A stretch of 62,602 nt of DNA from Fidelibacterota bacterium (GTDB taxonomy: Bacteria > Marinisomatota > Marinisomatia > Marinisomatales > TCS55), in contig SCKQ01000007.1 of the NCBI GenBank assembly GCA_004124535.1, positions 1 to 62,602 on the forward strand. The letters run 5' to 3'. The notes under the pieces were generated by a model. That model saw only the letters and a list, made by a program, of their open reading frames with translations. It was not told the origin of the DNA and did not search any database. Below, in pieces: positions 45,455-50,889 of the stretch (positions within the stretch are counted from its first letter, which is position 1; each line of letters opens with the position of its first letter). A program made the position numbers and the translations under genes.

Positions 45455-46807
45455 ATGGCACCATCTTCATCCAAATCGATCTTTCTTTGTAACAGTTGCG
45501 GGAATGAATTCTCCAAATGGCACGGTCAATGTCCGGCCTGCAGTGAATGGGGCACATTGAGTGAATTTCATCCTCCCAAAACCAGGCGCAAATCCAAAGG
45601 TGCACCCGCTAAAAAAACAACGGAACTGCGAACCCTCACTAATAAAAAAGATCGTATGCGCTCAACGTCTGGATTAAACGAAGTTGACAGAGTTTTAGGC
45701 GGCGGACTGCTCCCCGGATCAATGATTTTATTGGGTGGCCAGCCTGGAATTGGTAAATCCACATTAGCTTTACAAATCGTTGCAGGTTGTGGGCAGACAG
45801 CTCTCTATGTTTCAGCGGAAGAAAGTGAAGACCAGCTTGCTTTGCGAGCCGATCGGCTGGAATTAAACACAAAAGACCTCCATGTATCTGGAGAAAATGA
45901 AATTCTGAATGTGCTGGAACAAGTATCTGTGGTTCAACCAACTCTGGTTGTGATTGATTCCATACAGACGGTATATAATGAAGACCTGGATTCTTTGCCG
46001 GGCTCCGTGAGCCAGCTCCGTGATTGCGGCCAGCAGCTTTTGAATGCCTGCAAGCAAAAAGGGTTTACAGTTATTGTCATTGGACATGTAACGAAAGTGG
46101 GTATCATAGCAGGACCGAAAATGCTGGAGCACATGGTGGATACCGTATTATATCTGGAAGGGGATGAACGTTATGACCACCGCATTTTGCGTTCTGTAAA
46201 AAACCGTTTTGGCGCTACTAATGAAGTGGGTGTGTTTCATATGACATCTTCTGGATTGGATGAGGTTGAAAATCCATCAGCATTATTTCTCGCAGAGCGC
46301 ACAGCCAATACGGCCGGAACAGCCATCTTCCCATCCATGGAAGGAAGCCGCCCTATTCTGGTGGAAGTCCAGGCCCTTGTATCCAAAGCAAACTTCGGCA
46401 CACCCCAGCGCAATGCGAACGGTGTAGACAGCCGCAGGCTATCTATGCTTTTGGCTGTCTTGGAGAAACGACTTGGAAATGTTATGGGTATGAATGATGT
46501 ATTTGTGAATCTTGTGGGCGGATTAAAAATTCGAGACCCGGCTGCAGATCTGGCAATTATTGCGGCTGTGGCGTCCAGCAGTCGGGATGATGCCATTATT
46601 GATGGGACAGTTCTTGTTGGTGAAGTGGGTCTCACGGGTGAAGTCCGTTCAGTTGCCCGCATTGAACAGCGGCTGCAAGAAGCGGCTGCACTGGGATTTA
46701 CATCTGCAGTTATACCGGCTGGAAATATAAAGAATGATCATTCCTACAAGGAGTTGAAAGTCCATGGCGTCAAATCTGTCCGCGAGACCTTCCAGCATAT
46801 ATTTTAG
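45455..46807 (+). CDS. radA: DNA repair protein RadA
   Basis: 450 aa. Zinc ribbon C12, C15, C26, C29, then Walker A GGQPGIGKST (about 94-103), the RadA-specific KNRFG motif (SVKNRFGATNEVGVF), and a C-terminal Lon-protease-like domain (DLAIIAAVASS, GEVGLTGEVRSVARIEQRL). RadA is a branch-migration helicase that extends recombination intermediates. Full length, standard start, followed by tgt after 3 nt. Confidence 0.97.
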   Translation: MAPSSSKSIFLCNSCGNEFSKWHGQCPACSEWGTLSEFHPPKTRRKSKGAPAKKTTELRTLTNKKDRMRSTSGLNEVDRVLGGGLLPGSMILLGGQPGIGKSTLALQIVAGCGQTALYVSAEESEDQLALRADRLELNTKDLHVSGENEILNVLEQVSVVQPTLVVIDSIQTVYNEDLDSLPGSVSQLRDCGQQLLNACKQKGFTVIVIGHVTKVGIIAGPKMLEHMVDTVLYLEGDERYDHRILRSVKNRFGATNEVGVFHMTSSGLDEVENPSALFLAERTANTAGTAIFPSMEGSRPILVEVQALVSKANFGTPQRNANGVDSRRLSMLLAVLEKRLGNVMGMNDVFVNLVGGLKIRDPAADLAIIAAVASSSRDDAIIDGTVLVGEVGLTGEVRSVARIEQRLQEAAALGFTSAVIPAGNIKNDHSYKELKVHGVKSVRETFQHIF

Positions 46808-47943
<1,136 letters not shown>

Positions 47944-47944
<1 letters not shown>

Positions 47945-48408
47945 TGACAGATATTTTGGTAAAAGTGGTTGATGCTTATGTCTACCGCAAAGCGGAAGAT
48001 GGGTTACTGTTCTTAATTTTAAAACGGGCAGAGACAAAAATGTATGAACATTTATGGCAGGGAGTGGCCGGAAAGATCGAAGCAGGAGAAACAGCACCGC
48101 TGGCAGCCATAAGAGAATTGGATGAAGAGACAGGATTAAAACCAAGACACATGTTTATCGCTGATCATATAAGCCGGTTTTATGAAGCCCATGATGACCG
48201 TATCAACCTTGTACCTGTTTTTGGGATTGAAGTAGATTCAGACGATGTAACACTGTCGGAAGAGCATTGTGATTATAAATGGGTTACCTTGGATGAAGCA
48301 CTTGAGCATCTTGTCTGGCGTGGACAAAAAAAAGGCATTCAAGTGATTAATGAAATGGTATTAAGCGCTGATGAACGCATGCGCTGGTCCACAATAGAAT
48401 TAGAATAA
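47944..48408 (+). CDS. Nudix hydrolase
   Basis: 154 aa. The Nudix box is intact: GKIEAGETAPLAAIRELDEETGL (G-x5-E-x7-REL-x-EE-x-G). The N-terminal VDAYVYRKAEDGLLFLILKRA and later WVTLDEALEHLVW resemble the dATP pyrophosphohydrolase/NudB-like group acting on dihydroneopterin or deoxynucleoside triphosphates, but specificity is not proven by sequence. Start overlaps the tgt stop (TAATG); the selenocysteine peroxiredoxin follows after 13 nt. Confidence 0.9.
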
Positions 48409-48421
48409 TGAAGGAGATAAA

Positions 48422-48877
48422 ATGTTAACAGTAGGTAGCAAGGCACCGGATTTTACACTGCCCGATCAGGATGAGAATGTTGTATCCCTATCTGAATTAA
48501 AAGGGCAGAAAGTGGTTTTATGGTTTTTCCCCAAAGCCAACACCCCTGGCTGAACCATTGAAGGAGAGGGATTCCGGGATGAATTCCAGGCATATCAAGA
48601 TAAAAATATAGCCATTGTTGGTATAAGCGCTGACTCTGTACAGAAGCAGAAGAATTTTTGCGAAAAATTCAATTTTCCATTTTCTATGTTGTCCGATGAG
48701 AATAAGGATACGTTAAAAGCTTACCAGGCCTGGGGCAAAAAGAAGCTTTATGGCCGGGAATACGAAGGTATCATGCGCTACACCTACATCATTGATGAAG
48801 CAGGCAGCATTGCCCACGCCTTCGAAAAAGTGTCTGTTAAAACGCATGCCCAGGATGTCCTGCAGATACTAGACTGA
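48422..48877 (+). CDS. selenocysteine-containing peroxiredoxin (Bcp/PrxQ family), in-frame TGA
   Basis: 151 residues if the TGA at 48551-48553 is read as Sec44. The frame is open through the TGA and both sides are continuous family sequence: VGSKAPDFTLPDQDENVVSL, FFPKANTPG, then [Sec]TIEGEGFRDEF, ISADSVQKQKNF, and FPFSMLSDEN to the natural stop at 48875-48877. In Bcp/PrxQ enzymes the Sec position is the peroxidatic Cys (TPGCT). A hairpin 14 nt after the TGA fits a bacterial SECIS element (48568-48587). The resolving Cys five residues later is Glu49; another Cys is at 80. It would reduce hydroperoxides in the cytoplasm. AGGAG (48412-48416) precedes the ATG. The alternative, a recent nonsense mutation or sequencing error, cannot be ruled out without comparison but fits less well. 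Confidence 0.85.
48568..48587 (+). promoter_or_regulatory. bacterial SECIS-like hairpin for Sec insertion
   Basis: Arm GGGATTC (48568-48574) pairs with GAATTCC (48581-48587): seven pairs including one G-U, with the six-base loop CGGGAT. The loop begins 21 nt after the TGA and has G in its second position. These agree with the known bacterial requirement for a short stem-loop right after UGA, with a G near the start of the apical loop, read by SelB. The element is inside the coding sequence and encodes conserved GFRDEF residues. Confidence 0.75.
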
Positions 48878-48891
48878 AATAACTGATTAAA

Positions 48892-50889
48892 ATGAATCTA
48901 TCATTTATGCGCTCCCGGCGGCTGCGTTATCTTTTGGGAGTGGTGGGGTTGACATGGCTCCTGTTTGTTCTATTTCGGATCGTTTTTTTCTATATCTTCA
49001 AAAATACAGCCGCCGATGTCAGTTCCGCTGACATAACCCGTGCTTTTTGGATGGGTGTTCGTTTTGATCTGCGCCTGTCTATATTGATTTCATTGCCCTT
49101 ATTGATACTGACCATGGTTCCTGTAATAAACATGGGTCGTTCATCTCGAACTCGTTTGGCAGGAAAATGGATCTATGGGATTTTAATCATCAGTACTGTT
49201 GTTTTTTATGCTGCAGATTTCGGACACTTTTCCTATCTCCAGCAGCGCGTGGATATCACAGCTTTGAGCCTGTTGGAAAATCCTGCCATCGCATTGAACA
49301 TGGTTTGGGAAAGTTATCCGGTCGTTTGGTTTGTTTTACTGCTGGGAATAATTTGCCTAAGCTGGATAAAGATCTATAACAAGATCGTGTCTGCAACCAT
49401 CGCGAAACCTCCCAAATACTCTAATAAATCTCACAAAACGATCGGTGTCATTTTCGGTGGACTCATTTACCTTTTCAGTCTTTGGGGTACCTTTGCCCAA
49501 TATGCACTTTTTTGGAGCGATGCTTTTTTCAACCGTGATCCCTTCGTTTCCGCATTGGCCTTAAATCCGGTATTATACTTTTATGATACCACCACATTCA
49601 GCGAAGCGGACTATGATGAAGAGCAAGTTCGGAAATATTATCCATTGATCGCTGCTTGGCTGGGCGTGGATGATCCTGACATGGGAAGTCTGAATTTTAC
49701 CAGGCATGTCAAATCAGACCGAACCTCTGTTACACCGCCTAATGTGGTTATCATTTTCTTGGAATCAGTCGGGTTGAACCGCATGGGACTCATGGGCAAT
49801 CCCTTCGACCCAACACCTACATTGGATAGACTGGCTAGTGATGGTTTATATTTCACGAAATTCTATGTGCCCTGGGTAAGCACATCCCGTTCGGTGTTTA
49901 CCATGGTAACGGGCATCCCGGATGTGGCACGAAATAAAACATCCTCCCGCAATCCACTCATTCGGGATCAATACAGCATCATCTCCCAATTTGAAGATCA
50001 TGATAAATATTACCTGATTGGCGGCAGCGCCAGTTGGGCCAATATCCGCAGCCTCATCACCTATAACCTGAAAGACATGGAGCTCATTGAACTGGGTGAC
50101 TTCGACAGGCCGCGGGTGGATGTATGGGGTATTTCTGACCTGGACTTATTTCGCGAGGCCCACGATCTGTTTTCCAATCGAATGAATGAAAAACCATTTT
50201 TTGCTGTTATACAAACCGCAGGAAACCATAGGCCTTATTCTATTCCTGAAGACAATGCCGGTTTTGTTTTCATGGACGTAGATGAGCAGGAATTGCGGAA
50301 AGCAGGTTTCAATTCAGTAGGTCAGTACAATGCCATGCGTTTTTTGGATCATGCTGCAGGCCGGTTTTTTGATATGGCTGAACATGCAGATTATTTTGAT
50401 AATACCATTTTTGTCCTGTTTGGGGATCACGGCAATGCCGATCCCAGGGCAGAACATATGCCGGCGGACGATTATGCTTTAAGGCTGCGGTCTTATAATG
50501 TGCCGCTGATCATTTACTCTCCGACTCTAGCAATAGAGCCCCGAAAAATTGAAACAGTATGTGGTTTAGCGGACCTCATGCCCACCATAGCCGGTTTGAG
50601 TAGTATTAATTACACGAATAGAACTCTTGGGAGAGATGTATTAAATGTAAAAGATGATTTTGCCTTTATCGTAAATAAAAAAATATCCCCCAGCAGTTAT
50701 GGAATACTGAATAAGAGCAACTATCTGCGCATCTTCCGCAATGGCTCTGGAATGGAATTTCATGACCTGCTGAGTGATGATCCGGCAATGGACATCAAAG
50801 ACGATCTATCAGATCAGACTGAAAAATTCAGGAAAATGACCGCAGGGATCTACGAAACAGCCAAGTATATGTTATACCATAATAATTAA
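48892..50889 (+). CDS. LTA-synthase/MdoB-like sulfatase-fold membrane protein
   Basis: 665 aa. About five N-terminal membrane helices (residues 8-220), then an extracytoplasmic alkaline-phosphatase-superfamily domain: NVVIIFLESVGLNR (metal Glu), the PTLDRLASDGLYFTKFYVPWVSTSRSVFTMVTG block with the catalytic Thr, and LFGDHGN with metal Asp/His. This is the layout of LtaS and of phosphoglycerol/phosphoethanolamine transferases. In a Gram-negative it more likely modifies membrane glucans, lipid A or another envelope glycan; the donor and acceptor are unknown. Confidence 0.88.
   Translation: MNLSFMRSRRLRYLLGVVGLTWLLFVLFRIVFFYIFKNTAADVSSADITRAFWMGVRFDLRLSILISLPLLILTMVPVINMGRSSRTRLAGKWIYGILIISTVVFYAADFGHFSYLQQRVDITALSLLENPAIALNMVWESYPVVWFVLLLGIICLSWIKIYNKIVSATIAKPPKYSNKSHKTIGVIFGGLIYLFSLWGTFAQYALFWSDAFFNRDPFVSALALNPVLYFYDTTTFSEADYDEEQVRKYYPLIAAWLGVDDPDMGSLNFTRHVKSDRTSVTPPNVVIIFLESVGLNRMGLMGNPFDPTPTLDRLASDGLYFTKFYVPWVSTSRSVFTMVTGIPDVARNKTSSRNPLIRDQYSIISQFEDHDKYYLIGGSASWANIRSLITYNLKDMELIELGDFDRPRVDVWGISDLDLFREAHDLFSNRMNEKPFFAVIQTAGNHRPYSIPEDNAGFVFMDVDEQELRKAGFNSVGQYNAMRFLDHAAGRFFDMAEHADYFDNTIFVLFGDHGNADPRAEHMPADDYALRLRSYNVPLIIYSPTLAIEPRKIETVCGLADLMPTIAGLSSINYTNRTLGRDVLNVKDDFAFIVNKKISPSSYGILNKSNYLRIFRNGSGMEFHDLLSDDPAMDIKDDLSDQTEKFRKMTAGIYETAKYMLYHNN

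Follow-up and report, generated by a model that had tools for sequence, protein, structure and literature searches.

The window analysed here, a whole stretch of 62,602 nucleotides, comes from Candidatus Marinimicrobia (Fidelibacterota), a largely uncultured marine phylum. At 48422-48877 it carries what we hold, with a probability of about 0.96, to be a genuine selenoprotein gene, in which an in-frame UGA is decoded as selenocysteine (Sec) by means of a hairpin, giving a peroxidase of the Bcp/PrxQ type with Cys80 as its candidate resolving residue. The position of the codon, its exchange with Cys codons, the conserved hairpin and the presence of the Sec machinery in relatives are shown by comparison of sequences. 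From these we infer Sec incorporation itself and the machinery in the window's own genome, and we predict the peroxidase activity. A first-pass annotation of the DNA had called the gene a probable selenoprotein, and the Sec/Cys exchange, the covarying hairpin and the sel genes of the closest relatives all support that call.

The observation of an intact Bcp/PrxQ gene with TGA at the peroxidatic position was confirmed (Table 1). The TGA is the sole interruption of the peroxiredoxin frame before the stop TGA at 48875-48877. The intact frame and ribosome-binding site that had been claimed are both there, with AAGGAG upstream and no other interruption in 151 residues. The read-through protein matched AhpC-TSA (PF00578) at 6e-37 and scored 159.6 bits with the NCBIfam model of thioredoxin-dependent thiol peroxidase (NF006960), above its cut-off of 140. 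Aligned with solved Bcp structures, its TGA fell on the Cys of their TPGC motif, in agreement with the earlier placement of the codon at the catalytic Cys of Bcp/PrxQ enzymes, and it occupies the U of a PxxxTxxU motif as defined in the accessible text of PMC13188914. Read with table 11, the region gives a 63-aa ORF from 48686 and nothing longer, much as the first-pass annotation had expected of gene finders. Elsewhere in the window TGA serves as an ordinary stop: among 53 selected ORFs that reach 100 aa, 13 terminate in it. A scan of 55 selected window ORFs (60 aa and up) showed no other gene split by a TGA. Scans of the window for tRNAs and Rfam families found nothing, and no relative was confirmed in a viral collection. 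A tblastn search of plasmids returned 242 records, all below 60% identity; the five listed were Bcp or unannotated.

Table 1. Positions in the window of the peroxiredoxin gene, its elements and its neighbours.
Feature	Position	Strand	Remarks
radA/sms	45455..46807	+	upstream, same gene order; TIGR00416 545.8 bits, cut-off 403.05
tgt	46811..47944	+	TIGR00430 484.1 bits, cut-off 306.75
NUDIX hydrolase	47944..48408	+	directly upstream of peroxiredoxin; PF00293 63.8 bits
Ribosome-binding site AAGGAG	48411..48416	+	five bases 5' of ATG 48422
Bcp/PrxQ-type peroxiredoxin gene	48422..48877	+	151 residues with TGA read as Sec
In-frame TGA (Sec44)	48551..48553	+	peroxidatic position, P37-x-x-x-T41-x-x-U44
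SECIS-like hairpin	48569..48586	+	48569-48574 pairs with 48581-48586; loop 48575-48580 CGGGAT
Cys80 codon, proposed resolving cysteine	48659..48661	+	36 residues after Sec44; function inferred
Sulfatase-fold membrane protein	48892..50889	+	directly downstream; PF00884 129.2 bits

The codon at the peroxidatic column was then compared in relatives. Among the loci fetched from species genomes (the best 80 of 568), the 46 from Candidatus Marinimicrobia and from bins taken as the same lineage had TGA in 36 and TGT/TGC in 10, and the remaining 34, from outside the lineage, all had TGT/TGC. An alignment of 191 rows, which includes 80 further stretches, contained 177 distinct rows with the window included; these had TGA in 101, TGT/TGC in 76 and nothing else. 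The Cys/Sec exchange that the first-pass annotation had proposed looking for at this column is therefore found, and it takes no other form. Searching the phylum to which G001 belongs gave matches in 193 of 245 genomes. In at least 101 of the 245 a listed match had a single TGA within the peroxiredoxin gene; this is a lower bound, as weaker matches lie outside those listed.

These counts bear on whether the TGA is a nonsense mutation, a sequencing error or the mark of a pseudogene in an ordinary Cys peroxiredoxin. TGA is one base from TGT or TGC, and the window offers a single copy of the gene. However, the same TGA recurs in 100 other distinct rows, all from independent genomes, and the rest of the frame and the hairpin are conserved. 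Because the same codon stands in 101 distinct rows, the window included, a chance origin is excluded; for the lineage as a whole, mutation or error is already refuted, and for this gene we consider it very improbable.

Protein databases give a different picture of the column. A protein search returned 4368 homologues, and among the 120 listed the residue was Trp in 116, Cys in one, Arg in one and Leu in one, with one not fitting the motif. Taken at face value, this suggests that TGA is read as tryptophan (table 4). However, TGA also ends 13 of 53 selected ORFs in the window, the exchange is with Cys codons only, without one TGG in 177 distinct rows, and for each of the 12 Trp homologues that come within 5 residues of a fetched locus, that locus has TGA. 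A Trp peroxiredoxin made under a table 4 code was rejected, and we give it hardly any credence; the Trp in database homologues is probably a gene-caller artefact produced by a table 4 reading of TGA. Gene callers thus hide the Sec peroxiredoxin either as a truncated ORF or behind a tryptophan. Of the 120 listed database homologues (P0002-P0121), the 116 with Trp probably reflect a mistranslation that is widespread in metagenome protein sets.

A SECIS-like hairpin with a 6 bp stem starts 15 nt after the TGA, and in the window an extra G-C pair (48568-48587) extends the stem. In the bSECIS model given in the accessible text of PMC13188914, the loop has 3-9 nt and the stem 4-16 bp, UGA and loop are 16-37 nt apart, and the minimum free energy is at most -7.5; a G stands within the first two positions of the loop, usually with G or U next to it. 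The window hairpin lies within these limits (loop 6 nt, stem 6-7 bp, distance 21 nt, -7.9 kcal/mol, G followed by G in the loop). All six pairs could form in 96 of 101 TGA rows; among the Cys rows they could do so in 4 of the 23 that lack Cys49 and in 1 of the 53 that have it. Two-sided changes occurred in five of the six pairs, although two of these five owe them to no more than 1 and 2 cells. Covariation scored 0.378, whereas shuffles averaged 0.225 and none of 500 was as high; sliding the partner strand along gave at most 0.226. From neither control is kinship fully removed. RNAalifold arrived unaided at the same helix. Folding energies of single sequences were not unusual for their composition, the best fold of one of four folded pieces (48545-48605) was a different structure, and the hairpin of L011 reached only -6.0, short of the energy limit.

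Codon usage within the hairpin was also distinctive. Arg52 was encoded by CGG or CGT in 101 of 101 TGA rows, Phe51 by TTC in 75 of 75 and Leu51 by CTC in 24 of 26. Elsewhere in the same genes all six Arg codons are used, TTT exceeds TTC for Phe by 584 to 207, and CTC is rare for Leu. Codon choice in the hairpin is thus constrained beyond the protein sequence, and the limitation of Arg52 to CGG/CGT amounts to the G[G|U] of the published bSECIS model. This conserved and covarying hairpin adds independent support for the selenoprotein reading, and the gene provides Marinimicrobia with a well-supported selenoprotein for which a SECIS has been mapped. Two TGA relatives (L013:2215-2266 and L025:598-649) do not have the conserved hairpin but other folds, and may use another SECIS.

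The sel genes were looked for in the genomes of relatives, the window's own genome lying outside this comparison. In the four closest relatives compared (G114, G130, G131 and G001), SelA, SelB and tRNA-Sec(UCA) were present in all four and SelD was over the cut-off in three (G130, G131 and G001), with no SelD over the cut-off in G114. The search for selA, selB, selC and selD that the first-pass annotation had suggested thus succeeded in 4/4 of these genomes for the first three and in 3/4 for selD. Among the 46 locus genomes, SelA was over the cut-off in 34 (30 of 36 with TGA, 4 of 10 with Cys) and SelB in 30, and tRNA-Sec matched with at least 58 bits in 28 (25 of 36 and 3 of 10, respectively). 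No strong tRNA-Sec match was found in 11 of the 36 TGA genomes, which are drafts, even with a laxer search included; that search covered 19 genomes, 11 of them chosen for earlier absence, and gave a strong match in 6. ARAGORN identified all 14 strong matches tested as tRNA-Sec with anticodon TCA. Matches to RF01852 below 50 bits were rejected as tRNA-Sec, as all 14 that were fetched were tRNA-Ser or tRNA-Leu.

Across the phylum SelA was found in 177 of 245 genomes: in 88 of 101 TGA genomes, in 4 of 20 close Cys genomes and in 23 of 29 genomes of the Cys49 type. The difference between TGA and close Cys genomes gave a Fisher p of 5.6e-9, in which kinship is ignored. The 20 close Cys genomes were selected from the listed matches that contain no stop, to a limit of E 8.4e-49, together with two partial matches, G094 and G082; one of the 20, G085 (L184), has Cys49. 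The 29 Cys49-type genomes were picked from the listed matches; 22 were fetched, 21 with Cys49 and one (G165) without, and 7 were left unfetched. SelA was also present in 85 genomes without a TGA peroxiredoxin among the matches listed, and because of these and the 23 Cys49-type genomes, SelA alone is no predictor of the TGA form. No SelA was found in 13 of the 101 TGA genomes. Three of the 13 (G006, G013 and G031) have a strong tRNA-Sec, three (G017, G027 and G041) have neither a SelB over the cut-off nor a strong tRNA-Sec, and the remaining seven lie outside the tRNA-Sec and SelB searches.

The search for SelD covered 22 chosen genomes; eight SelD genes passed the cut-off, and every one of them contained one internal TGA. 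SelD itself (L225-L228 and the matches of G015, G018, G032 and G037), with an in-frame TGA in each, is probably a selenoprotein too. Thirteen of the 22, small genomes (0.7-1.0 Mb) with the Cys form, had no SelD over the cut-off, and none of them is among the SelA genomes. In these 13 (G034-G036, G043, G045, G078, G083-G086 and G088-G090) the whole Sec trait has apparently been lost.

The distribution of the machinery and the behaviour of the hairpin both bear on whether the UGA is a real stop, the product being a 43-residue peptide or a fragment re-initiated from 48686, where the 63-aa table 11 ORF does exist. A real stop would not be expected to go with constrained codons in the hairpin, with decay of the hairpin in Cys orthologues, with the association of the TGA form with SelA, or with small Cys-form genomes having lost SelA and SelD. 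We regard termination at this UGA as extremely unlikely, and read it as a Sec codon in what follows.

Gene order links the Sec and Cys forms. The NUDIX gene lies upstream of the peroxiredoxin in 32 of 46 lineage loci, with a sulfatase in between in L029 and L033. The nearest upstream match is Tgt in 8 of the 46, and in 6 none of the window genes tested has a match upstream. The 10 Cys loci have the same order, with NUDIX in 5 and Tgt in 5, and as gene order is common to both, the Sec and Cys forms represent one and the same gene. The rows nearest to the window on the peroxiredoxin tree were those of G114, G130, G001 and G131. The downstream sulfatase, which is a neighbour and no part of the mechanism, also adjoins the peroxiredoxin in G114, G001, G127 and G129, and in the closest genomes, G114 and G001, it is 81% identical to that of the window. 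The sulfatase of G114 (L217, G114:C69:1606-3597) has one internal TGA, with none in the other listed relatives. Near the Sec form, on the opposite strand, there is in some loci a second, more distant peroxiredoxin match (L023:12253-12669, L038:6291-6710 and L042:8-400).

How might the enzyme work? A confident AlphaFold2 model (mean pLDDT 92.2) placed Cys80 in a helix spanning residues 73-83, and its best PDB matches were Bcp/PrxQ chains, with Foldseek TM scores by query of 0.80-0.91 over the listed chains. PrxQ/Bcp of Xanthomonas campestris (C48, C84) shares the fold, the peroxidatic position and the 36-residue spacing with the window protein, but has a peroxidatic Cys where the window protein has Sec. 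Cys80 aligned with the Cys of NFCAK in the Xanthomonas protein. The window protein has Glu49 and hence lacks the resolving Cys of the PrxQ +5 type, and has in Cys80 the +36 resolving Cys of the Xanthomonas type. In the mechanism we propose, the UGA would be decoded as Sec by SelB and tRNA-Sec(UCA), directed by the hairpin. The Sec44 selenolate would then reduce hydroperoxides, becoming a selenenic acid that Cys80 would resolve to a selenenylsulfide, and thioredoxin would probably re-reduce this. The spacing and alignment make Cys80 a reasonably good candidate for the resolving residue.

Resolving cysteines vary widely among the Sec forms. Cys80 is present in 50 of 101 Sec rows and hence absent in 51; 6 rows have Cys49, and 45 have neither residue. 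Fifteen of the 101, including that of the close relative L001, have no Cys in the whole ORF; such forms would need an external thiol, and they are open to bench testing. Both Cys49 and Cys80 were missing in 45 of 101 Sec rows compared with 6 of 76 Cys rows (Fisher 3.8e-8), an association to which a kinship-aware test, with only 2 independent pairs on supported branches, gave no support.

A Sec-containing peroxiredoxin, PrxU, has reportedly been described in Eubacterium acidaminophilum, and has the peroxiredoxin fold in common with the window protein. Assignment of the window protein to the PrxU subfamily (NCBIfam NF040737) was rejected, at 39.6 bits against a cut-off of 270. The Sec-containing peroxiredoxin of the Bcp type is, for its part, an already known selenoprotein family. 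In their accessible text, PMC1088965 gives 43 unique Sargasso Sea sequences of COG1225 with TXXU, PMC9312934 lists the Sec peroxiredoxin as COG1225 (Bcp), PMC13188914 also lists a peroxiredoxin with TxxU, and peroxiredoxin selenoproteins are counted in PMC1794560, PMC2398784 and PMC5029168. The earlier statement that Sec at the peroxidatic position is known in other prokaryotes is thus borne out by an established family (PMC1088965, PMC9312934). With that family the window gene shares the AhpC/TSA domain of the Bcp type, Sec in PxxxTxxU and a SECIS-like hairpin directly downstream, a likeness to published descriptions rather than to member sequences. What is new is its distribution across the phylum, the mapping of a covarying hairpin, the gene order, the apparent Sec-to-Cys reversions, and the Cys-free forms and frequent lack of a resolving Cys.

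For selenocysteine or selenoproteins in Marinimicrobia or SAR406, the literature within our scope, which took in few of the subscription journals and other papers in part, held no account of the gene or of phylum-wide Sec use. In its accessible text, PMC9012183 reports the neighbouring phylum KSB1 with selA, selB and selD and without selC. A tRNA-Sec overlooked in KSB1 would explain the missing selC in an ordinary way. SAR406 is the older name of Marinimicrobia. Three SAR406 single-cell genomes are listed with an orphan SelD in the accessible text of PMC5029168, and the Sec trait found here suggests that incomplete genomes may be the cause of these orphans.

The relationships of the Sec and Cys forms were examined in a tree of 137 rows and 149 columns, made by a quick search and with many weak forks; it omits the gappy L187 and L188 and takes 15 of the 53 Cys49-type rows. 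All 101 Sec rows fell inside one group of 119 rows (SH-aLRT 99) that includes 18 Cys rows. The minimum number of Sec/Cys changes on the tree was 5, of which supported branches force only 2, and 5 changes fit a single gain followed by four reversions (L008; L015 with L018; L032 with L037; and the small-genome group). A joint reading, which we put forward tentatively and at slightly below even odds, is that a single gain of Sec in the PrxQ of Marinimicrobia brought freedom from the resolving Cys. Many members would then be one-Sec peroxidases, some of them Cys-free, that hand the selenenic acid to an external thiol; in streamlined members the whole Sec system would later have been lost, the residue would have gone back to Cys and the SECIS would have decayed. 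With reversions alongside loss of the machinery and the hairpin, the clade is a natural experiment on the retention and loss of Sec. Four of its Cys loci (L015, L018, L032 and L037) have kept the paired hairpin in genomes that keep SelD, and SelA is present in three of the four genomes (G015 being the one without). Because hairpin, SelD and mostly SelA are kept, these four look like recent Sec-to-Cys reversions.
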